From: Chryseolinea serpens
GTDB taxonomy: Bacteria; Bacteroidota; Bacteroidia; Cytophagales; Cyclobacteriaceae
NCBI RefSeq assembly: GCF_900129725.1
Contig: NZ_FQWQ01000001.1
Location: forward strand, 434,001 to 498,000
DNA: 64,000 nt
Direction of reading: 5' to 3'
Within the stretch, counting starts at the first letter, position 1. Each line of letters opens with the position of its first letter. The position numbers were made by a program, and so were the translations under genes. Positions 26,485 to 37,069 of the stretch are shown in pieces. The notes below the pieces were generated by a model that did not search any database, was not told where the DNA came from, and was given only the letters and a program-made list of their open reading frames with translations.

Positions 26485-28548
26485 ATGAAAAAACTAGTGC
26501 ATGTTGTCCTCGCAGGAGTTGCCCTCACTGCGGTGTCCTGTTCTACAAGGAAAGTGGAAGAAGAAAAGCTGCCCGACGGTGTGGGGCTTAATCTTTCCTA
26601 TGTAGACACGACCGTGCGTCCGCAGGATGACTTCTTCAAGTATGTGAACGGCGGTTGGATTGCCAAGACCAACATTCCTGCCGACCAGGGTCGCTGGGGC
26701 TCTTTCAATGAGCTTCGCGAATACAATAACGATGTGGTCTTGAAAGTGCTGAAGAAAGCGGCTGAAAATACGCAGCTCTATCCCGAAGGCACGGATCAGC
26801 GCAAAGCTTCCGATTTCTATTCGATCGGCATGGACTCTACCCTCGCCGAGCGCGTGGGCATCACGCCCATCAAACCCATCATGGCCCAGATCGACGCCAT
26901 CAAATCCAAAAACGACATTCAGTCCTACCTCGTGGAAGACGTGCTGACCGGCGGCGGGGCTTTTTTCGGCCTGGGCATTTTGCCGGATCTGAAAAACAGC
27001 AAGAAAATGGGGGCGTACCTTGGTTCGGGGGGTATCGGATTACCCGAGCGCGATTATTATCTGAAAGACGACCCGAAGTCAAAGGAGACGCGCGAAAAAT
27101 ACAAGGAATACCTGACCAAGCTTTTCACGTTGGCCCAGGTGCCTGAAGCCAAAGCCAATGCCGACGCCGCCCTGGTGCTGCGCCTGGAAACGGACCTGGC
27201 AAAGGCCACGCTCAGCAAAGAAGACAGCCGCGACCCCGTGAAGCAATACAACCCCAGAACGCTGGCAGAATTGGCCAAGCTAACACCCTCCATAAACTGG
27301 AAAGCCTATTTTGACGGGTTGAACGTACACGAAGACACGATCATCGTGACCGAGCCCGAGTTCATGAAGGCGTACGAAAAGATTGTGAACACCTACAAGA
27401 TCGACGACGTGAAAACGTATTTGAAAGCGGCTCTGCTGCGGGGCTCCGCCCCGTTCCTGAACCATGATTTTGTGGATGCATCGTTCGAATTCAACACCAA
27501 ATACCTCCGCGGCACCGACAAGATGCGCCCCCGCTGGAAGCGCATACTGGATGTGACCGACAGCTATCTCGGCGAAGCCATAGGCAAACTCTATGTCGAC
27601 GAAGCCTTCCCGCCCGAAGCCAAGAAAAAGGCCCTGGAAATGGTGGAAAACATCAAATTGGCCTTTGCCGACCGCATCAACAGCCTCGACTGGATGTCGG
27701 ATTCAACCAAGAAAAGTGCTTTGCACAAGCTGAGCACCTTCACCGTGAAGATCGGCTATCCCGACAAGTGGCATGACTATTCGAAGTTGGCCATCGAGAA
27801 AGCGCCCGAAAAAGCCTCTTATTTTGGCAACGCCCTGGCCGCATCGCGCTTCCAGGTAATCGAACAGATCGAGAAACTGGGCAAGCCGGTCGACAAGACC
27901 GAGTGGCAGATGACTCCCCAGACCGTGAATGCCTACTACAACCCGCTCTTCAACGAGATCGTGTTCCCTGCCGGCATTTTGCAACCGCCTTTCTATGACT
28001 ATCGTGCCGATGAGGCCGTAAACTATGGTGGCATCGGTTCGGTGATCGGCCACGAGATCTCCCACGGCTTTGACGACCAAGGCAGCCAGTTCGATGCCGA
28101 CGGCAACCTGAAAAACTGGTGGCAAGGCGTTGACCTGACCAAGTTCCAGGGCAAAGGCAAAGCCTACGCAAAACAGTTCGATAAATATGAACCCCTGCCG
28201 GGCGTGTTTGTGCAAGGCCAGTTCACGCTGGGTGAAAACATCGGTGACCTCGGCGGCATCGCGGTTGCCTATGAAGGCCTGCAGCGATTCTATAAAGACC
28301 ACAAAAAACCGGGTCTCATCGATGGGTTGACACCGGAACAGCGCTTCTTCATGTCGTGGGGCACCATCTGGCGCACCAAGTATCGCGACGAAGCCCTCCG
28401 CACCCAAGTGCTCACCGATCCTCACTCACCGGGCATGTACCGCGCCAACGGACCGCTTTCAAACTTCGAACCCTTCTATAAAGCATATGATGTGAAAGAA
28501 GGCGATAAGATGTTCAGACCGGATAGCGCGCGAGTAAAAATCTGGTAA
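26485..28548 (+). CDS. M13 (neprilysin/PepO-type) zinc metallopeptidase lipoprotein
   Basis: A 687-residue lipoprotein (signal MKKLVHVVLAGVALTAVSC, lipobox AVSC). The N-terminal M13 helical domain starts at DTTVRPQDDFFKYVNGGW. The catalytic domain has His523, Glu524 and His527 in GHEISHGFDDQG, with the third zinc ligand Glu584 in GENIGDLGG. Further typical marks are NAYYNP and the C-terminal end at ARVKIW, the counterpart of the usual C-terminal CxVW. It cleaves small peptides in the periplasm or at the cell surface. A terminator-like hairpin at 28611-28648 follows. Confidence 0.94.
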   Translation: MKKLVHVVLAGVALTAVSCSTRKVEEEKLPDGVGLNLSYVDTTVRPQDDFFKYVNGGWIAKTNIPADQGRWGSFNELREYNNDVVLKVLKKAAENTQLYPEGTDQRKASDFYSIGMDSTLAERVGITPIKPIMAQIDAIKSKNDIQSYLVEDVLTGGGAFFGLGILPDLKNSKKMGAYLGSGGIGLPERDYYLKDDPKSKETREKYKEYLTKLFTLAQVPEAKANADAALVLRLETDLAKATLSKEDSRDPVKQYNPRTLAELAKLTPSINWKAYFDGLNVHEDTIIVTEPEFMKAYEKIVNTYKIDDVKTYLKAALLRGSAPFLNHDFVDASFEFNTKYLRGTDKMRPRWKRILDVTDSYLGEAIGKLYVDEAFPPEAKKKALEMVENIKLAFADRINSLDWMSDSTKKSALHKLSTFTVKIGYPDKWHDYSKLAIEKAPEKASYFGNALAASRFQVIEQIEKLGKPVDKTEWQMTPQTVNAYYNPLFNEIVFPAGILQPPFYDYRADEAVNYGGIGSVIGHEISHGFDDQGSQFDADGNLKNWWQGVDLTKFQGKGKAYAKQFDKYEPLPGVFVQGQFTLGENIGDLGGIAVAYEGLQRFYKDHKKPGLIDGLTPEQRFFMSWGTIWRTKYRDEALRTQVLTDPHSPGMYRANGPLSNFEPFYKAYDVKEGDKMFRPDSARVKIW

Positions 28549-28566
28549 CAGAAATTCATTTTGAAC

Positions 28567-28725
28567 CGCCTCACCTTCGCTAAAGCTTCGGCGAGCGCGG
28601 TTAGAGGTAAAGGCGCAAAGGTTGACGGAAAGACCTTTGCGCTTTTTTCTTTGCCTGCCTGCCGAAGCTTTTAGCGAAGGAGGGCGCCGCTCTGCGCTCG
28701 CCGAAGCTTTAGCGAAGGTGAGGCG
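28567..28725. repeat. 32-bp perfect inverted repeat around the terminator
   Basis: The arm at 28567-28598 (cgcctcaccttcgctaaagc...gagcgc) is repeated as its exact reverse complement at 28694-28725. A third, imperfect partial copy of the inner motif (gccgaagcttttagcgaagg) is at 28661-28680. A fourth relative occurs after another gene end at 43106-43136. Confidence 0.8.
28611..28648 (+). terminator. Rho-independent terminator of the M13 peptidase gene
   Basis: The stem gcgcaaaggt (28613-28622) pairs with acctttgcgc (28633-28642), loop of 10 bases, followed by six Ts. Confidence 0.75.
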
Positions 28726-28748
28726 CTTTAAAATTTTTCTACGCTAAG

Positions 28749-28779
28749 TTTGTTATAAAACGATTACTTACTATTATTG
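28749..28779 (+). promoter_or_regulatory. Promoter of bTHX (and probably the trp operon)
   Basis: TTTG at 28749-28752, a 19-base spacer, then TATTATTG at 28772-28779 (one mismatch to TAnnTTTG). The spacing fits the Bacteroidota -33/-7 promoter. It lies 23 bases before the bTHX ATG. I see no clearer promoter between bTHX and the trp leader. Confidence 0.5.
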
Positions 28780-28802
28780 CCCTCGCAAAGAGCAACCATA
28801 AC

Positions 28803-28982
28803 ATGGGAAAAGGAGATAAAAAGTCGAAAAAAGGAAAAATCTGGAGAGACTCTTACGGAGTTTCCCGTAACAAAAAGGCCCTGAAAGCAAAACTGAAAAG
28901 AACAGCTTCCAAGAAACCTGTAACAACTGAAGCCGCTGGTGAAGCAGCAGCAAAACCGAAAAGAACTACGACTAAGAAATAA
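28803..28982 (+). CDS. 30S ribosomal protein bTHX
   Basis: A 59-residue very basic protein. The N-terminal block MGKGDKKSKKGKIWRDSYGV closely matches the Thx/THX family (MGKGD..., GKIWRGTYG in Thermus), which sits in a cavity at the top of the 30S head and stabilises rRNA. The C-terminal half is a Lys/Ala/Thr tail. The reading frame is clean and ends in TAA at 28980-28982. The trp leader peptide begins 15 bases after the stop on the same strand. Confidence 0.85.
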   Translation: MGKGDKKSKKGKIWRDSYGVSRNKKALKAKLKRTASKKPVTTEAAGEAAAKPKRTTTKK

Positions 28983-28997
28983 GCTGTCGAAGATCAA

Positions 28998-29054
28998 ATG
29001 ATAAAGTTTACAAACATTGCATGGTGGTGGCACAGATCGGGATCCGATATGTGA
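28998..29054 (+). CDS. trpL: trp operon leader peptide
   Basis: An 18-codon frame (MIKFTNIAWWWHRSGSDM, then TGA at 29052-29054) with three consecutive Trp codons at 29022-29030. It precedes a terminator hairpin and trpE. This is the classic leader arrangement of ribosome-mediated transcription attenuation: scarcity of Trp-tRNA would stall the ribosome on the Trp codons. The stop codon lies inside the antiterminator arm (29051-29059), so a ribosome reaching the stop would cover that arm and let the terminator form. Confidence 0.85.
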   Translation: MIKFTNIAWWWHRSGSDM

Positions 29055-29119
29055 ACAGCCTTGTTATGACTTTTAAAATAAGCCGAAGGCCTGCTGTTCA
29101 CAGCAGGCCTTCTTTTTTT
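29051..29119 (+). promoter_or_regulatory. trp attenuator: antiterminator and terminator
   Basis: The terminator stem aaggcctgctg (29086-29096) pairs with cagcaggcctt (29101-29111), loop ttca, followed by a run of Ts to 29119. The alternative arm gtgaacagc (29051-29059) is an exact 9-base complement of gctgttcac (29093-29101), which takes in part of the terminator's 5' arm and its loop. The two structures are mutually exclusive. A clear 1:2 protector hairpin was not found; only a 5-bp hairpin at 29036-29048 is visible. Confidence 0.82.
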
Positions 29120-29148
29120 GTCCAAACTCAATCCATAGCTATACGCCG

Positions 29149-30552
29149 ATGAAGTACAAATTGAAAACCTACTCCAAAAAACTGCTGGCCGACACGCTCA
29201 CGCCCGTGAACATCTACCTCAAGTTGCGCGATGTGTATGCCGGTAGCATTTTGCTGGAAAGCTCCGATTATCACGGTCATGAAAACAGTCTTTCTTATAT
29301 CTGCTGCGATCCACTCGCTTCGTTCGAAGTGAAAGGCAACGCCGCCGAATACCGTTATCCCGACGGCAAAACGGAGAAAGAGACCATCACCCGCGTGGGC
29401 CAGGTCACCACCATGTTGGAGAATTTCAAGAATGCCATCGAGCCCGATAACATTCCCTCGGCGTATGCCAACTGCGGCTTGTTCGGCTACATCGCCTATG
29501 ATGCCATCCGTTTCTTTGAGGATGTGAAGATCGATCAGAAGGAGCAAAGCATCCCCGATGTGTTGTACAAGTTGTACCGCTATGTGATCATCGTCAACCA
29601 TTTCTCCAACGAGTTGAGCTTGTATGAGCATTGCTATGCCGGCAAGGGCGAATGCCACAGCACGTTGGACCGCGTGGAGCAGATCATTTTCAGCAACAAG
29701 TTCTCGACCTATAAATTCTCCCTCACCGACGGCGAGACCTCCAACGTGGACGACGAAGAGTTTGTGAAGATCGTGGAGAAAGGGAAGGAGCATTGCTACC
29801 GCGGCGATGTGTTCCAGATCGTGTTGTCGCGCCGGTTCACCACCGGTTTCAAGGGCGATGAGTTTAATGTGTATCGCGCGCTGCGTTCCATAAACCCGTC
29901 GCCTTATCTGTTCTATTTTGATTATGGAAGCTTCAAGCTTTTTGGCTCGTCGCCGGAAGCGCAGTTGCAGGTGAGCCACGGCAAGGCCCATATCTACCCA
30001 ATTGCCGGCACGTTCAGACGTTCGGGCAACGACCAGGAAGATGCCGCCATCGCCGAGAAACTGGCTGCCGATGAAAAAGAGAATGCCGAACACGTCATGC
30101 TGGTCGACCTGGCGCGCAACGACATGAGCCGCAATGCCGAGCATGTGACGGTGGAGGTATTTAAGGAGATCCAATTCTATTCGCACGTGATCCACCTGGT
30201 TTCGAAAGTGACGGGTACGTTGAAAAAAGACACTTCCGTCGTGAACATCGCGGCCGATACGTTTCCCGCGGGAACGCTTTCGGGAGCGCCAAAGCATATG
30301 GCCATGACGTTGATCGATAAATATGAAAACATCAACCGCAGTTTCTACGGTGGCGCGATCGGCTTTATGGGATATGACGGTTCCTTCAACCATGCCATCA
30401 TGATCCGGACGTTCCTGAGTCGTGAGAACAAATTGATCTACCAGGCGGGCGCCGGCGTAGTGTCCAAGTCCAATTCCGAAAGCGAGCTGCAAGAGGTGAA
30501 CAATAAACTGACAGCGTTGCGCAAGGCAGTTTTAATGGCAGAGAAAATTTAA
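29149..30552 (+). CDS. trpE: Anthranilate synthase component I
   Basis: A 467-residue chorismate-utilising enzyme that makes anthranilate with ammonia from TrpG. The N-terminal domain contains LLESSDYHGHENSLSYI, the counterpart of the LLES Trp-binding motif used in feedback inhibition. The C-terminal chorismate-binding domain carries GDVFQIVLSRRF, SPEAQLQV, PIAGTFRRS, ELVDLARND-type LVDLARNDMSRNAE and TFPAGTLSGAPKHMAM. First structural gene of the operon, 30 bases after the attenuator. Confidence 0.96.
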   Translation: MKYKLKTYSKKLLADTLTPVNIYLKLRDVYAGSILLESSDYHGHENSLSYICCDPLASFEVKGNAAEYRYPDGKTEKETITRVGQVTTMLENFKNAIEPDNIPSAYANCGLFGYIAYDAIRFFEDVKIDQKEQSIPDVLYKLYRYVIIVNHFSNELSLYEHCYAGKGECHSTLDRVEQIIFSNKFSTYKFSLTDGETSNVDDEEFVKIVEKGKEHCYRGDVFQIVLSRRFTTGFKGDEFNVYRALRSINPSPYLFYFDYGSFKLFGSSPEAQLQVSHGKAHIYPIAGTFRRSGNDQEDAAIAEKLAADEKENAEHVMLVDLARNDMSRNAEHVTVEVFKEIQFYSHVIHLVSKVTGTLKKDTSVVNIAADTFPAGTLSGAPKHMAMTLIDKYENINRSFYGGAIGFMGYDGSFNHAIMIRTFLSRENKLIYQAGAGVVSKSNSESELQEVNNKLTALRKAVLMAEKI

Positions 30553-30604: not shown

Positions 30605-31171
30605 ATGAAAATTCTTGTTCTCGATAATTACGATTCTTTTACTTATAATCTCGTCCACATCCTGCGGGCGTTGAACTATTCGCTTGACGTTTTCAGGAAC
30701 GATAAGATCGCGCTGGAGGCTGTGAAGGCTTACGATAAGATCCTGCTGTCGCCAGGCCCGGGCATTCCCGACGAAGCCGGCATCATGAAGCAGGTGGTGC
30801 GCGAATATGGTCCGACCAAAAGTATCCTGGGCATTTGCCTGGGTCATCAGGGAATAGGCGAGGTGTATGGAGCATCCTTGTTCAACATCCCGAAAGTGCT
30901 TCACGGTGTCACGTCGGTGGCCACGGTGACCGATCGCAACGAATATCTTTTTAAGAATGTGCCCGACACATTCCAGGCTACTCATTACCATTCCTGGGCC
31001 ATAAAACCCGAAACGCTCACCGACGACCTGCGCGCCACCGCCACCAACGACGACGGGCTCATCATGGGATTGACCCACGTGCGCTACGATGTGAAAGGCC
31101 TGCAATTCCACCCCGAATCCATCATGACACCCGAAGGCCCCAAGATGGTGGAGAACTGGCTGAAACATTGA
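30605..31171 (+). CDS. trpG: Anthranilate synthase component II (glutamine amidotransferase)
   Basis: A 188-residue class I glutamine amidotransferase that supplies ammonia to TrpE. The catalytic triad is Cys78 in GICLGHQ with His169 and Glu171 in FHPES. The oxyanion-strand motif LLSPGPGIP is at 47-55. The length is that of the single-domain subunit. It may also serve p-aminobenzoate synthesis, as in other bacteria with one shared subunit; no pabB is in view. Confidence 0.95.
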   Translation: MKILVLDNYDSFTYNLVHILRALNYSLDVFRNDKIALEAVKAYDKILLSPGPGIPDEAGIMKQVVREYGPTKSILGICLGHQGIGEVYGASLFNIPKVLHGVTSVATVTDRNEYLFKNVPDTFQATHYHSWAIKPETLTDDLRATATNDDGLIMGLTHVRYDVKGLQFHPESIMTPEGPKMVENWLKH

Positions 31172-31218
31172 TCACCCCGCATTCAGACCTCATACAAAAG
31201 CATTCAATACAAAACAAC

Positions 31219-32205
31219 ATGAAAGAAATTCTCAACGAACTCATCGACCACCGCTCGCTCACCAAGGAGTCGGCGAAGAAAGTGTTGGTCGATCTGGCGT
31301 CCGGAAAATATAATCCCAGCCTGACCACGGCCTTCATGACCGTGTACATGATGCGCAGCATAACCGTAGACGAACTCCAAGGCTTTCGCGACGCCATGCT
31401 GGAGCTTTGCGTGCCGGCGAAATTTGATCAGCCGGTGATGGACGTCTGTGGAACGGGCGGCGATGGCAAGAACACCTTCAACATGTCGACATTATCCTCT
31501 TTTGTGGTGGCGGCCGCGGGACAACCCGTTGCCAAGCACGGCAACTATGGCGTGTCGTCGGCCTGCGGATCGTCGAACTTGTTGGAATATTTCGGTTACA
31601 AGTTCACAAACGACCTCGACGAATTGAAGCGCAGTCTTGACCGGGCGAACATTTGCTTTATGCACGCCCCGCTCTTTCACCCGGCCATGAAAAACGTGGC
31701 ACCTATACGCAAGGAGTTGGGGGTGAAGACATTTTTCAACATGCTGGGTCCCATGGTAAACCCCGCTTTTCCTACGCGACAGTTGGTAGGCGTGTTCAGC
31801 CTGGAGCTGGCGCGACAATACGGGTACCTATATCAGAATACTGAAAAGGATTTTGTCATTCTCCACTCCATCGACGGATACGATGAAGTGTCGCTGACGG
31901 GCCCGTTCAAGTTCTTCTTCAATGGAGGAGAAAAAATGCTGGAGCCGGCCGACCTGGGCCAACCCCGATTGGTGCATGACGACATTCGCGGTGGCAATAC
32001 CGTGGAGGAATCGGCCAAGGTGTTTATGAATGTTTTGGAAGGGAAGGGCACGCCCGCGCAAGTATCGGCCGTGATCGCCAACGCGGCGATGGCTTTGTAT
32101 ACCGGCCATCAAAAAGAAGGCTTGCCCCGCGCGGTGGAACGCGCCACCGATGCGCTCAAATCCGGGAAGGCGTTACAGTCTTTCAAAAATCTGATGGGAA
32201 AATAA
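31219..32205 (+). CDS. trpD: Anthranilate phosphoribosyltransferase
   Basis: A 328-residue enzyme joining anthranilate to PRPP. It shows the PRPP-binding motif CGTGGDGKNTFNMST, KHGNYGVSSACGS(SN), and the HAPLFHPAMK region of the family. The ATG at 31219 (MKEILNELIDH) is chosen; a TTG start overlapping trpG by four bases is possible but adds 17 residues with no family match. Second step-specific gene of the trp operon. Confidence 0.95.
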   Translation: MKEILNELIDHRSLTKESAKKVLVDLASGKYNPSLTTAFMTVYMMRSITVDELQGFRDAMLELCVPAKFDQPVMDVCGTGGDGKNTFNMSTLSSFVVAAAGQPVAKHGNYGVSSACGSSNLLEYFGYKFTNDLDELKRSLDRANICFMHAPLFHPAMKNVAPIRKELGVKTFFNMLGPMVNPAFPTRQLVGVFSLELARQYGYLYQNTEKDFVILHSIDGYDEVSLTGPFKFFFNGGEKMLEPADLGQPRLVHDDIRGGNTVEESAKVFMNVLEGKGTPAQVSAVIANAAMALYTGHQKEGLPRAVERATDALKSGKALQSFKNLMGK

Positions 32206-32217
32206 AACAAGATCGAC

Positions 32218-33015
32218 ATGAACATATTGGACGAGATCATCGCCTATAAAAAGAAAGAAGTTGCCGATCGCAAGGAACTCTATCCCGTGAAGCTGCTGGA
32301 GCAAAGCCACTACTTTGCCACGCCACCCGTGTCATTGAAAAAATACATCCAGCGCGACGACCTTTCGGGGATCATTGCCGAGATAAAACGCAAGTCGCCT
32401 TCGAAAGGAGTGATCAACCCGCATGTGTCGGTGGAGCGCACCTCCATTGGCTATATGCAGGCCGGCGCTTCCGCCTTGTCGGTGCTGACGGACACGAATT
32501 TCTTCGGGGGTAGCAATGACGATTTGATGACGGCGCGAAAATTTAATTTTTGCCCCATCCTCCGGAAAGATTTTACCATCGACGAATACCAGATCGTGGA
32601 AGCCAAGTCGATCGGCGCCGATGCCATCTTGCTCATCGCCGCCGCCTTGCCGCCGGCACGCGTAAAAGAACTGGCCGCATTTGCGCATTCCTTTGGACTG
32701 GAGGTTTTATTGGAGGTACACAACGAAGAAGAACTGAACGCCAACCTCGACGCCCAAGCCGACCTGATCGGCGTGAACAACCGAAACCTGAAAACTTTTG
32801 AACTCAGCGTGGAAATATCTAAACAGCTGGCCAAACGGATCCCCGACACGGTGGTGAAAGTTTCGGAGAGCGGCATCGAATCGGTGGCCACCATTCTTGA
32901 ATTAAAAAAATATGGCTACGAAGGATTTTTGATGGGGCAAAACTTTATGCAACACGCCCGTCCCGAAATCGCCGCAAAGGAATTTATCGACGAGTTGAAA
33001 AAAGCAACGCACTGA
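32218..33015 (+). CDS. trpC: Indole-3-glycerol phosphate synthase
   Basis: A 265-residue (beta/alpha)8 enzyme that closes the indole ring from CdRP. It has the N-terminal MNILDEIIAYKKKEV, the IIAEIKRKSPSKG motif with catalytic lysines, VLTDTNFFGGS, ILRKDF, and the IGVNNRNLKTF and VSESGI phosphate-binding parts. It is a separate protein, not fused to TrpF. Its stop overlaps the trpF start by one base (TGATG). Confidence 0.96.
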   Translation: MNILDEIIAYKKKEVADRKELYPVKLLEQSHYFATPPVSLKKYIQRDDLSGIIAEIKRKSPSKGVINPHVSVERTSIGYMQAGASALSVLTDTNFFGGSNDDLMTARKFNFCPILRKDFTIDEYQIVEAKSIGADAILLIAAALPPARVKELAAFAHSFGLEVLLEVHNEEELNANLDAQADLIGVNNRNLKTFELSVEISKQLAKRIPDTVVKVSESGIESVATILELKKYGYEGFLMGQNFMQHARPEIAAKEFIDELKKATH

Positions 33016-33671
33016 TGGCGCCGTACACGGACATAAAGCTGAAGATCTGTGGTATGCGGGATGGTGAAAACATCCGGGAGGTAGCGGCGTTGTCGCCACA
33101 GTATATGGGCTTTATCTTTTATCGTAAGTCACCCCGGTTTGTCGGCGATGATTTTGTGATGCCGGCCATTCCGGCAAGCATAAAAAAAGTGGGTGTCTTT
33201 GTAAATGAAACCACGGAGACCATCCTGAACCTGGCCTCGCGGTATGACCTCACCCTAATTCAACTGCACGGGAACGAAACGCCGGAACAATGCCGTGAAC
33301 TGAAAGCTAAAGGACTGGGGGTTATCAAAGTGTTTTCGATGGGAGAGGACTTTGATTGGAGTGTCGTGCAACCTTACAAACCCGTGGCCGACTTTTTTCT
33401 TTTCGATACCAAAGGAAAATACTACGGTGGCAATGCCCAAGCTTTCGACTGGTCGCTGCTTCAACAGTACGACCAGGAAATTCCCTTCTTCCTGAGTGGG
33501 GGATTGTCGCCAGAAAATATTGGAAACATCACGGGGCTAAAAGACATGAACCTTTACGCACTGGACGTGAACAGCGGGGTGGAAGATAGCCCCGGCGTGA
33601 AGAACATATCAAAAATCGAATTTGTCCTTGAGAAATTAAAATCATTGAGTGATCTAAACCTGAAAGCATGA
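33015..33671 (+). CDS. trpF: Phosphoribosylanthranilate isomerase
   Basis: A 218-residue TIM-barrel isomerase (Amadori rearrangement of PRA to CdRP). Catalytic Cys12 is in [11 protein letters not shown], and the general acid Asp lies in [10 protein letters not shown] near the C-terminus. [12 protein letters not shown] and IQLHGNE are typical. It overlaps trpC by one base and trpB by four (ATGA), so translation is probably coupled. Confidence 0.95.
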
Positions 33672-34849
33672 AATACACTGTAAACGAAAAGGGATACTAT
33701 GGCAAATTTGGAGGCGCCTACATTCCCGAGATGCTTTACCCCAACGTGGAAGAGCTGCGCACGCGCTACCTGGACATCATTTACGAAGAAGGCTTTCAAA
33801 AGGAGTTTCATAAACTGCTCCGCGACTATGTGGGACGCCCCACGCCGCTGTACCTGGCGAAACGCCTTTCCGAAAAATATGGCGCCACGATTTATTTGAA
33901 GCGCGAAGACCTGTGCCACACTGGCGCGCACAAAGTAAACAACACCATTGGTCAGATCCTCCTGGCCAAACGCCTGGGCAAGCAAAAGATCATTGCTGAA
34001 ACCGGCGCAGGCCAACACGGCGTAGCTACGGCAACGGTATGTGCGCTGATGGGAATGGAATGTATTGTTTACATGGGTAAAATTGACATGGAGCGGCAAC
34101 GCCCCAACGTGGAACGCATGCGCATCCTGGGGACCACAGTGGTTCCCGCACTGAGCGGCAGCATGACCCTGAAAGACGCCACCAACGAAGCCATGCGGCA
34201 TTGGATCAACAACCCCACGGATACACATTACATCATTGGATCGGTGGTAGGACCCCATCCTTATCCCGATATGGTCGCTCGCTTTCAATCGGTGATCAGC
34301 GAAGAAATGAAAAAGCAATTGCAGGAGGAGATCGGCAATCCTTATCCTGACTATGTGTTTGCCTGTGTCGGTGGAGGGAGCAATGCCGCTGGAGCGTTCT
34401 ATCATTTCCTGGACGATGAACACGTCACATTGGTAGCATCCGAAGCTGCTGGCAAAGGAGTCGACAGTGGCGAGTCTGCAGCCACAACGGCACTCGGGAA
34501 ACCCGGCGTGCTCCATGGAAGCAAAACGATCCTGATGCAGACGGAAGACGGTCAGGTGGTGGAGCCCTACTCCATCTCGGCCGGGTTGGACTATCCCGGC
34601 ATCGGGCCCATCCATGCCCACCTGTTTGATGTGGGAAGAGTAAAGTTTGTAAGCGCCACTGACGACGAGGCCATGAACGCGGGCCTGGAGTTGAGCCGGA
34701 TGGAAGGCATCATCCCCGCTATCGAATCAGCGCACGCGTTGGCAGCATTAAGTCAATTTACATTTGAAAAGGACGACGTGGTAGTGGTCAATTTATCGGG
34801 CCGTGGCGACAAGGATTTGGAAACGTATATCCGTTGGGGAAAATATTAG
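33668..34849 (+). CDS. trpB: Tryptophan synthase beta chain
   Basis: A 393-residue PLP enzyme that condenses indole with serine. The PLP lysine is Lys89 in [10 protein letters not shown], the phosphate site is GGGSNAAG, and [13 protein letters not shown] is the conserved loop. Length and N-terminal [13 protein letters not shown] mark the TrpB1 type that partners TrpA, not the TrpB2 type. It follows trpF with an ATGA overlap. Confidence 0.97.
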
Positions 34850-34898
34850 TAATACCGGTCGAGCACTCCGAGCACACATCAACCTTAATAAGAAGAAA

Positions 34899-35687
34899 AT
34901 GAAAAACAGGATCAAAGACCTTTTCGCAAGTGGGAAAGGAAATATATTGTCAGTGTACTATACCGCCGGCTTCCCAACATTTGACAGCACGGCCGCCATT
35001 GCCACCGCCCTGGAAAAAGGTGGCGCGGATATTATCGAGATCGGCATTCCCTATTCCGATCCCGTAGCTGACGGACCAACGATACAAGAGAGCAACAAGA
35101 TCGCCCTGGAGAATGGCGTCACCTTGCCAAAAATCCTGGAACAGGTGAAGCTCATCCGCAAGACGGTTAAAATTCCGATCATCCTGATGGGCTATGTAAA
35201 TCCCGTCATGCAATACGGCATCGAACGCTTCGCTAAAGACGCCGCCGCGGCAGGCGTAGACGGCGTTATTTTGCCAGACCTGCCCATGGACGCCTTCCTG
35301 GCGGAATACAAAACCACTTTCGAGGCCGCAAACCTCAGCAACACGTTCCTGATCTCGCCCACCACGTCAGAGGACCGTATCCGCAAGATCGACAACGAAA
35401 CAGACGGCTTCATCTATGCGGTTTCTGCTTCCAGCATCACGGGCGCCAAGGGCGAGTTCGCTGATACGCAGTTGCAATATTTCGACCGGCTGAAGACGAT
35501 GAAGTTAAAAAATCCTTTCCTCATTGGTTTCGGCATTTCAGATCACGCCACGTTTGCCAAGGCATCGTCCTATGGAGCAGGAGCGATCGTGGGCAGCGCC
35601 TTTATCAATGTGCTGAAGAAGTCTGCGAACGTCGCCTCCGACAGCGAGGCCTTTGCCGTATCACTCAAAAACAACTCCAAGTCATGA
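34899..35687 (+). CDS. trpA: Tryptophan synthase alpha chain
   Basis: A 262-residue TIM-barrel lyase that releases indole to TrpB. The catalytic acids are Glu47 (IIEIGIPYSDP) and Asp58 (VADGPTIQ). DGVILPDLPMD and the phosphate-binding GFGIS are present. The ATG at 34899 (MKNRIKDLFASGKG) fits the family start; an upstream in-frame start would lie inside trpB. It overlaps the DAHP synthase gene by four bases. Confidence 0.96.
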   Translation: MKNRIKDLFASGKGNILSVYYTAGFPTFDSTAAIATALEKGGADIIEIGIPYSDPVADGPTIQESNKIALENGVTLPKILEQVKLIRKTVKIPIILMGYVNPVMQYGIERFAKDAAAAGVDGVILPDLPMDAFLAEYKTTFEAANLSNTFLISPTTSEDRIRKIDNETDGFIYAVSASSITGAKGEFADTQLQYFDRLKTMKLKNPFLIGFGISDHATFAKASSYGAGAIVGSAFINVLKKSANVASDSEAFAVSLKNNSKS

Positions 35688-36694
35688 TCATTCAACTGCA
35701 ACCGTCGATCGCGACTGCCGACAAAGAGGCGATCATCAGCAAGAGCAAGTCCCTCGGTTATAAGACCACCGAAGTAAAAACGCAAGAGCATGTTTACCTT
35801 GTCGGAATCGGCAAAAAAGAATTCGACATCCGCCTGCTGGGACATATGCCCGGGATCGCCGACATCCACCGCGTTTCGGACGACTACAAGCTGGTGTCGC
35901 GCAAATGGAAAGTAGACCGGACACACCTCGACCTCGGCGATGGCGTGATCATTGGCGACGGCACGTTGTCCATCATGGCCGGACCGTGTTCCATCGAGAA
36001 CGAATCGCAGGTGCAACAAACGATCGATCACCTGGTGTCACAGGGTGTGCGCATCATGCGGGGTGGTGTTTTCAAACCGCGCAGTTCACCCTACGCTTTT
36101 CGCGGGCTTGGGGTGGAGGGCCTGAAGATGTGGCACACGCTGGCGCGCAAGGCGGGCATGAAGATCATCAGCGAGGTGATGCAGGTGAGCCAGATCGCGG
36201 AGATGCATGACTATGTAGATGTCTTCCAGGTGGGCGCGCGCAACACGCAGAACTTTAACCTGCTCGATGAATTGGGGCGGGTAGATAAAGCCGTGATGAT
36301 CAAGCGCGGTATTTCGGGGACGATCGAAGAGTTGCTGTACTCCGCTGAATACGTCTTTGCCGCGGGCAACGAAAAACTCCTGCTGTGCGAGCGGGGCATC
36401 CGCACGTATGAACGTGCCAGCCGCAACACCTTGGATATAAACGCCATCCCAATCCTGAAAGAAAAGACCCATTTGCCTGTGATCGCCGACCCTTCCCACG
36501 GCATCGGCATACGCGAATATGTTGAACCCGTAGCGTTGGCTGCCGTCATGGCTGGTGCCGATGGCGTGATCTACGAAACCCATCAAAAACCGGAGGAAGC
36601 GGCGTCGGATGGACAACAAACGCTCGACTTCAAGGAATCAGAACGACTGATCCGCAAGTTGCGGAAGGTATACGAACTGCGCGAAAATTTTTAA
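35684..36694 (+). CDS. DAHP synthase, type I-beta
   Basis: A 336-residue 3-deoxy-7-phosphoheptulonate synthase, first enzyme of the shikimate pathway. Residues 1-70 are the ferredoxin-like regulatory domain (MIIQLQPSIATADKEAII) that gates feedback inhibition in the Thermotoga-type enzymes. The catalytic barrel begins at IMAGPCSIENESQV and contains RGGVFKPRSSPYAFRG, QVGARN, KRG and DPSHGIG. It overlaps trpA by four bases (ATGA). It is therefore the last gene of the trp operon and should follow tryptophan attenuation. Confidence 0.95.
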   Translation: MIIQLQPSIATADKEAIISKSKSLGYKTTEVKTQEHVYLVGIGKKEFDIRLLGHMPGIADIHRVSDDYKLVSRKWKVDRTHLDLGDGVIIGDGTLSIMAGPCSIENESQVQQTIDHLVSQGVRIMRGGVFKPRSSPYAFRGLGVEGLKMWHTLARKAGMKIISEVMQVSQIAEMHDYVDVFQVGARNTQNFNLLDELGRVDKAVMIKRGISGTIEELLYSAEYVFAAGNEKLLLCERGIRTYERASRNTLDINAIPILKEKTHLPVIADPSHGIGIREYVEPVALAAVMAGADGVIYETHQKPEEAASDGQQTLDFKESERLIRKLRKVYELRENF

Positions 36695-36718
36695 CAGACT
36701 CAAATCCCCTATATCGCT

Positions 36719-37069
36719 ATGACCGTCTACGGCATAAAAAATTGCAACACCGTGAAAACCGCGATGGACTGGCTGAAGCAGCACAACGTCACCGTCGACT
36801 TTCACGACTACAAAACCAAGGGCATCACGGCCGCTAAGCTAAAGGAGTGGAGCAAGCAAGTAGGATGGGAGAGCCTCGTGAACAAGCGCGGCACCACTTG
36901 GCGTCAGCTCGACGAATCGGAGCAAGCCAAAGTCACCAGCGAAAAAGCAGCCATCGATTTGATGATGGAAAAGACTAGCGTGATCAAGCGACCCCTCATC
37001 GAGCAGAACGGTAAGGTCATAGCGCTAGGCTTCGACGAAGCAGCCTATGTAAAAGTCTTTAAGAAGTAA
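36719..37069 (+). CDS. ArsC/Spx-family (YffB-like) thioredoxin-fold protein
   Basis: A 116-residue protein starting VYGIKNCNTVKTAMDWL, with Cys9 as the only N-terminal active-site cysteine. The family's IKRPLIEQNGKVIALGF block is near residues 90-107. It matches the YffB/ArsC-like group, many members of which are not proven arsenate reductases. It lies 24 bases after the DAHP synthase gene and may be read through from the trp operon, but a functional link is not evident. Convergent with the kinase gene at 37075. Confidence 0.88.
   Translation: MTVYGIKNCNTVKTAMDWLKQHNVTVDFHDYKTKGITAAKLKEWSKQVGWESLVNKRGTTWRQLDESEQAKVTSEKAAIDLMMEKTSVIKRPLIEQNGKVIALGFDEAAYVKVFKK

Follow-up and report, generated by a model that had tools for sequence, protein, structure and literature searches.

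A predicted tryptophan attenuator behind the ribosomal protein gene bTHX precedes the trp operon of Chryseolinea serpens

The trp locus and the anatomy of its leader region

The window, i.e. the whole stretch of 64,000 nt of Chryseolinea serpens DNA that was analyzed, carries on its plus strand the genes trpEGDCFBA, which were assigned by Pfam: trpE (29149..30552; PF00425, PF04715), trpG encoding the glutamine amidotransferase (30605..31171; PF00117), trpD (31216..32205; PF00591, PF02885), trpC (32218..33015; PF00218), trpF (33015..33671; PF00697), trpB (33668..34849; PF00291 and position) and trpA (34896..35687; PF00290). A DAHP synthase gene (35684..36694, plus strand; PF00793) overlaps the end of trpA, and therefore the first step of the aromatic pathway is likely to share this tryptophan control. 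The next gene, 24 nt after the DAHP synthase gene, belongs to the ArsC family (region 35684-37069). Upstream of trpE, on the same strand, bTHX (28803..28982) encodes the 30S ribosomal protein Thx of 59 amino acids (PF17070, 32.3 bits at a cut-off of 29.7). The interval between bTHX and the preceding gene (26485-28548) contains a 41-nt inverted repeat with 95% complementary arms (28558-28598 and 28694-28734), which enclose a terminator-like hairpin. The core of the repeat, CGCTAAAGCTTCGGCGAGCG, has 84 matches in the 8.36-Mb genome at up to 2 mismatches, compared to 1 match of a control pattern, and the entire element (28558-28734) is classed by sequence as a dispersed REP-like repeat.

Between bTHX and trpE lies an element that combines a leader frame with tandem Trp codons ahead of trp structural genes, an intrinsic terminator with a U-run and mutually exclusive pairings 1:2, 2:3 and 3:4, the 2:3 pairing giving mixed column counts in the alignment described below. 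All its parts are on the plus strand. Direct reading reveals the leader gene trpL (28998..29054; ATG at 28998, TGA at 29052-29054), whose 18 codons plus stop encode the peptide MIKFTNIAWWWHRSGSDM and which is conserved in the clade of the window. The three tandem Trp codons (29022..29030), which would constitute the sensing site, form invariant columns in the clade alignment. Hairpin 1:2 (CACAGATCGGGATCCGATATGTG, 29031..29053) begins directly 3' of these codons and overlaps the antiterminator arm 2 (TGTGAACAGC, 29050..29059), a 10-nt complement to GCTGTTCACA at 29093-29102. The latter runs from the inner end of the left terminator arm across the loop into the right arm, of which it takes in the first two bases. 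The terminator 3:4 (29085..29119) is composed of 12 perfect pairs (arms 29085-29096 and 29101-29112) around the loop TTCA, followed by seven T residues (29113-29119). An earlier note, made from the letters of this DNA, had described the 18-codon frame with its three Trp codons, a leader stop codon within the antiterminator arm and trpE downstream, and this observation is real: the stop codon is located inside arm 2, 21 nt after the Trp codons. Two lengths had to be corrected, since the note counted 11 bp for the terminator and 9 bases for the arm (29051-29059 versus 29093-29101). It was silent on the promoter arrangement and on the position behind bTHX.

The attenuator region folds better than its shuffled versions (z of -3.3; 1 of 200 shuffles as good). 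The number of terminator-like sites as such is not above chance: three were found in 28500-29300 on both strands, one of them being the same hairpin read on the opposite strand, and shuffles gave 1.4 (sd 1.3). The edge of a translating ribosome lies about 16 nt beyond the P-site codon, and this distance was used to block stretches of the transcript from folding. According to this modelled footprint, a ribosome on the Trp codons would cover the RNA up to approximately 29035-29041, i.e. much or all of arm 1, leaving arm 2 free; a ribosome at the stop codon would cover it up to about 29065 and thus all of arm 2. In the transcript extended to 29102, the 2:3 pairing forms when the ribosome is stalled (edge at 29041; -15.2 kcal/mol) and is blocked when the ribosome resides at the stop codon (-2.3). 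Once the leader is complete, the terminator (-22.7) is the favored structure at equilibrium in all states folded, including that with a stalled ribosome, and therefore the switch must be kinetic and operate during transcription. The untranslated transcript to 29102 also folds into 2:3, and loss of leader translation may therefore result in read-through. In these folds the default without leader translation may be read-through rather than the super-termination expected from hairpin 1:2. The textbook expectation for E. coli is super-termination in the absence of a ribosome, which the fold of the window does not predict.

Conservation of the Trp codons and of the alternative pairings

We surveyed the regions upstream of trpE for leaders, defined as ATG frames of up to 45 codons that contain WW or WxW and lie within 460 nt upstream. 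In the family of the window, trpE was found in 111 of 118 genomes and 110 upstream regions were taken, leaving out the partial trpE of G087, which is nevertheless preceded by a leader, and a second match in G115. The search of the phylum found trpE in 219 of 257 genomes and contributed 87 upstream regions, namely four from the window's family, all 51 from other families of its order and class, and 32 of 161 from families outside the class, the latter representing one or few loci per family among the higher-scoring places listed. A further set of 83 loci consists of the best 80 of at least 583 confirmed matches in named records plus three new loci from relatives; named and unnamed sets may overlap. 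Among the named matches listed, those closest to TrpE of the window come from a Flammeovirgaceae MAG (80%), an unplaced Bacteroidia MAG (70%) and Cyclobacteriaceae MAGs (66%), which makes an origin in Cytophagales likely. One genome, G082, is present twice (L066, L120) and was counted in the leader and swap tests, and once only for promoters and stop positions.

W-rich leaders precede trpE at 112 of 114 loci of the family (2.4 expected from dinucleotide shuffles), at 50 of 51 loci from other families of the class (shuffles 1.2) and at 25 of 32 loci outside the class (shuffles 0.4). The stricter WWW motif is present in 93/114, 43/51 and 22/32 of these loci, respectively, and in none of the shuffles. 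In the further set, 78 of 83 loci have a W-rich leader, including L248 with a TTG start; L220, L221, L224, L230 and L243 have none. The two family loci lacking a W-rich ATG leader are L061 and L075, of which L075 possesses a WWW frame starting with TTG; outside the class, no such leader was detected at 7 of the 32 loci. At L162, from another family of the class, the leader is found before trpB, which precedes trpE, rather than before trpE itself. A comparable order, with a WW leader before trpB and trpE next, occurs at L285 in a further family (f11), and in family f4, where the trp genes are split, trpD has a separate WWW leader (L286 by Pfam, L287 by resemblance). In 10 of the 265 loci with a leader, two W-rich leader-terminator units precede trpE in series, forming tandem attenuators (L026, L029, L085, L094, L099, L106, L107, L223, L255, L264). 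A literature search on tandem attenuators gave, among the titles listed, the mgtCBR case and none for trp.

The terminator finder detected a terminator after 256 of 278 leader units; the 22 units without one include three of the clade (L012, L113, L241). In these 256 units arm 2 pairs with the arm and loop of its own terminator at a mean of -16.4 kcal/mol. When terminators were swapped within the same group the mean was -12.55 (sd of 40 permutation means, 0.15), and shuffled arms reached -9.7. The own pairing beats 86% of the sampled foreign terminators in the window's family and 62% in the 83-locus set, which includes the best 80 of at least 583 matches and holds many close Flavobacteriaceae. 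In 104 of the 256 units it beats at least 90% of them.

Pairings were also assessed in an alignment of the clade comprising 20 rows, from which L207, recognized as a member later, was left out. For the terminator, 94.1% of the cells are paired and 7 of 12 pairs are changed on both sides, a number reached by 6 of 500 shuffles. Hairpin 1:2 has 92.5% paired cells and 13 cells with two-sided changes (0 of 500 shuffles); counted by pairs, three show two-sided changes, a value in line with shuffles (three or more in 196 of 500). The 2:3 pairing of the window (type A) is present in 11 of the 20 rows and leaves 76.0% of the cells paired, compared to 71.6 after shuffling. The other nine rows (type B) pair GATCGG with CCGATC, or variants thereof, in a shifted register, which scores below the same structure slid by -1 (67.1% vs 81.8% paired), because type-A rows and gap columns enter the count. 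As the two types do not share columns, the column counts for the antiterminator are mixed, and covariation of 2:3 is claimed from the swap test instead.

The paired stretch of arm 2 starts at a median of 17 nt after the last Trp codon in the family, in the class and in the 83-locus set, and at 15 nt outside the class, there with a wide spread (quartiles 7 and 21). The broad span of arm 2 includes the stop codon in 198 of 255 units. The stop lies 36 nt after the last Trp codon in L010, L011, L013, L080 and L205, and in L010 and L013 the core arm begins 21 and 25 nt before it. The earlier note's idea that a ribosome completing the leader masks the arm from the stop codon thus fits the window and these 198 units; as the stop codon shifts between loci, such masking is frequent without being general. 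The note had also proposed to look in related genomes for the Trp codons and for covarying stems. Both are retained, the codons as W-rich leaders in 112 of 114 family loci and as invariant clade columns, the alternative pairing with compensatory changes in the swap test and in the alignments of the terminator and of hairpin 1:2, so that comparison with relatives supports its reading of a ribosome-mediated trp attenuator.

Promoter arrangement and the position behind bTHX

Promoters were called as consensus matches, either by a strict rule (TTTG, a spacer of 17-21 and no more than one mismatch in the 6 fixed bases of TAnnTTTG) or by a relaxed rule with a loosened -33 element; in Flavobacterium psychrophilum the Bacteroidota promoter box is reported at -12 to -5 (PMC9723704). 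Within 500 nt before trpE of the window, the sole predicted promoter of the Bacteroidota type precedes bTHX (28749..28779, plus strand). It consists of TTTG at 28749-28752, a 19-nt spacer and TATTATTG at 28772-28779 with 5 of 6 consensus bases, predicting a transcription start at about 28784, 19 nt before bTHX. The consensus scan found no match between this start and trpE, and transcription of the operon would therefore depend on this bTHX promoter, by inference that of the whole unit, and on escape at 29119. A sigma70-like match at 29052-29079 does not fit the Bacteroidota consensus. The 15-nt gap between the bTHX stop and the leader start (28983..28997), which keeps the frame, holds no promoter match.

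The same arrangement recurs in the clade. There, -1 to +15 nt separate the bTHX stop from the leader ATG, and the resulting junctions, for example TAATG (L013), TAAATG (L204) and TAAGATG (L009), are characteristic of translationally coupled genes. A tree of TrpE with 48 rows groups the 20 fused loci that it contains on one side of a branch supported at 99/99; the 21st member (L080) was absent from it. A box precedes bTHX in all 21 clade loci, in 20 of them by the relaxed scan (L013 with TTTT at -33) and in L241 by a separate scan, and predicts a start 13-20 nt before the ATG. No recognizable trpL promoter is present in the clade: a strict box 22-50 nt before the first Trp codon was found at 63 of 99 non-fused loci of the family versus 0 of 13 fused ones, and the relaxed scan near the leader gave 86 of 98 non-fused loci versus 0 of 21 clade loci. 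One possible exception is L012, which has a weak box between leader and trpE. By motif, bTHX lies upstream at 34 of 280 loci, Pfam verification covering the bTHX of the window. Thirteen other loci of the family carry it at a distance of 37-226 nt, and several of them, for instance L041, L065, L106 and L107, retain a promoter match for trpL within this interval. Most simply, bTHX and trp are old neighbors, and the clade lost the trpL promoter and closed the gap. In 18 of the 21 clade loci the leader is in the reading frame of bTHX, the gap being a multiple of three. A bTHX-leader fusion by read-through of the stop codon was considered for this shared frame; because stop codons and spacers vary, the agreement was treated as drift, probably of the bTHX stop within one frame.

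Among the 63 non-fused family loci with a strict match, the predicted 5' untranslated stretch measures 0-5 nt in 39 and 6-15 nt in 24, so that their leaders, judged from consensus matches, look nearly leaderless. In other families of the class the strict match is found at 23 of 50 loci (11 with 0-5 nt, 10 with 6-15 nt and 2 with a longer 5' UTR), and among 25 leaders outside the class at none, which argues that placing the promoter near the leader is not phylum-wide. These predicted trpL messages contrast with a phylum in which leaderless mRNAs are uncommon: they account for 5.5% of the mapped mRNAs in F. psychrophilum (PMC9723704), and 5' UTRs shorter than 10 nt for approximately 3.7% in B. 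thetaiotaomicron (PMC7366714).

We consider it probable that the element is a ribosome-mediated transcription attenuator of the trp operon, which occupies the second-cistron position of the bTHX message. From this arrangement we infer that the bTHX promoter drives transcription, that translation restarts after bTHX, that ribosomes stall and that the switch responds to tryptophan. RNA polymerase would start before bTHX, and the ribosome finishing bTHX would restart at the leader AUG 15 nt further on, so that the polymerase enters the leader with a translating ribosome behind it. With ample charged tRNA-Trp it would reach the stop codon and cover arm 2, the 12-bp terminator would form and the bTHX messenger would end there; given transcription from the bTHX promoter, the terminator would hence also provide the 3' end of bTHX mRNA. 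When charged tRNA-Trp is scarce, the ribosome would stall on the three Trp codons and cover arm 1, so that arm 2 could engage arm 3 ahead of the completion of the terminator. By this antitermination the polymerase would continue through trpEGDCFBA and the DAHP synthase gene. Because no promoter is recognized near the leader and a promoter match precedes bTHX, the trp operon looks like a tryptophan-gated read-through of a ribosomal-protein message. On balance we also lean, with less assurance, towards the wider proposal that in the clade the trp operon without own promoter is a tryptophan-gated extension of this message, that bTHX-delivered ribosomes translate the leader, that the attenuator integrates ribosomal-protein expression with tRNA-Trp charging, and that its terminator also serves to end the bTHX messenger.

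The same attenuator could instead work independently of bTHX, from an unrecognized promoter near a leader that is initiated on its own. Most non-fused members of the family do have a promoter match at this place, a weak or unusual promoter inside bTHX would escape the consensus scan, and alternative sigma motifs outside its reach are described for the phylum (PMC9723704, as far as its available text goes). However, not even a relaxed box is found near the leader in any of the 21 clade loci, as opposed to 86 of 98 non-fused ones, all 21 have the box before bTHX, and a promoter outside the bTHX coding sequence would not fit into the gap; we judge this arrangement unlikely. It is very improbable that the hairpin is no more than an ordinary bTHX terminator with an accidental W-rich frame, trpE being reached by leak-through or from a promoter beyond it. 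The hairpin must end most bTHX messages anyway, the weak box of L012 lies after the leader, and regulation itself is read from sequence comparison; yet the Trp codons are conserved across the phylum, with bTHX recognized upstream at no more than the said 34 of 280 loci, the terminator and arm 2 covary, and in the window no promoter box separates the terminator from trpE. Hardly credible is another tryptophan sensor acting on the terminator, such as a T-box, a TRAP-like protein or a riboswitch, which regulate trp genes in Firmicutes, since what is conserved is a Trp-codon reading frame, no Rfam family matches the window at cut-off and no T-box is among the nine matches obtained up to E = 10 in a 601-base region.

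Relation to known attenuators

We return to the proposed ribosome-mediated attenuator on the bTHX message. The closest Rfam family is Bacteroid-trp (RF01692), a computational motif published in 2010 (Weinberg, PMC2864571). It resembles the E. coli Trp-leader attenuator and is conserved upstream of the F. psychrophilum trp operon (PMC6414381, in the text available), and for the same species "strong clues" for leader-peptide attenuation before amino-acid operons are mentioned (PMC9723704, likewise). RF01692 scores 24.9 bits against the window at a cut-off of 49, which places the element outside the family by the Rfam rule. By context it agrees, as it carries Trp codons and precedes trp genes in a member of the Bacteroidota, and the Rfam alignment sets the UGGuGGUGg of the family on the Trp codons of the window. 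Being alike in place, codons and logic, both probably represent the same ancestral system. The cut-off is passed by none of 116 genomes of the same family and by 24 of 257 phylum genomes, 23 of which belong to one family (f7). As it is passed almost only there among the genomes drawn, such leaders are likely to be unannotated elsewhere. Some RF01692 match at E up to 10 was obtained in 67 genomes of the window's family, including in part other things such as a his leader or a chance match; the sub-threshold match in G048 (L288) was rejected as a leader, as it holds no W-rich short frame. The best match up to E = 10, ahead of Bacteroid-trp, is Thr_leader (28 bits, cut-off 55). Since the codons are Trp and the genes trp, we read this match as resemblance in the attenuator hairpin and T-run and not as a threonine leader.

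His leaders surfaced among the sub-threshold RF01692 matches. In the genome of the window, a second attenuator-like leader (L283, G000:C10:1695300-1697300, at about 395-472 of the locus) contains five His codons in a row (MRNAINNSNHHHHHVK..., read by eye), followed by a T-tailed hairpin and hisG (Pfam HisG); two genomes of the same genus have similar His-rich leaders before a like gene (L284, L290).

The earlier note regarded this logic as classical in enteric bacteria and was less aware of direct descriptions in Bacteroidota, where it considered leader peptides mostly unannotated. Descriptions for Bacteroidota do exist (RF01692; PMC6414381; PMC9723704), and in the available text of these sources they are predictions. 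The kind of attenuator is already predicted for the phylum; for its wiring to bTHX, a search of open-licence papers, as far as their text was available, found no description of a trp leader that follows the gene of a ribosomal protein. The comparative survey of attenuation that is cited as published by Lopatovskaya and others in 2010 may cover Bacteroidetes.

Bacteroidota are reported to lack classical Shine-Dalgarno sequences (PMC7366714), which makes it a mechanistic question how a ribosome reaches the leader in time to control the polymerase. Our data suggest two answers within one family: a promoter so near that the leader mRNA is nearly leaderless, or ribosome delivery by an upstream ribosomal-protein gene. 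The clade would illustrate that an amino-acid operon can drop its promoter and keep attenuation control, tied to the promoter of a ribosomal protein.

Bacteroid-trp shares with the element of the window the occurrence in Bacteroidota, the place upstream of trp genes, the short frame with Trp codons and the attenuator role; the available text of PMC2864571 and PMC6414381 mentions no bTHX fusion, which the window has. The leader attenuators of F. psychrophilum belong to the same phylum, although PMC9723704, in its available text, names no operon and mentions no fusion to a ribosomal protein gene. Sinorhizobium meliloti trpL is likewise a Trp attenuator, in an operon said not to be under transcription repression (PMC7298713, available text), and its leaderless mRNA resembles the prediction for many non-fused relatives of the window. 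S. meliloti is, however, an Alphaproteobacterium whose leader mRNA starts at the ATG (PMC7298713), whereas the leader of the window's clade follows bTHX. With the trp attenuator of E. coli the element shares tandem Trp codons, hairpins 1:2, 2:3 and 3:4 and an intrinsic terminator before trpE. The E. coli leader has two Trp codons; that of the window has three and represents the second cistron behind a ribosomal protein gene.
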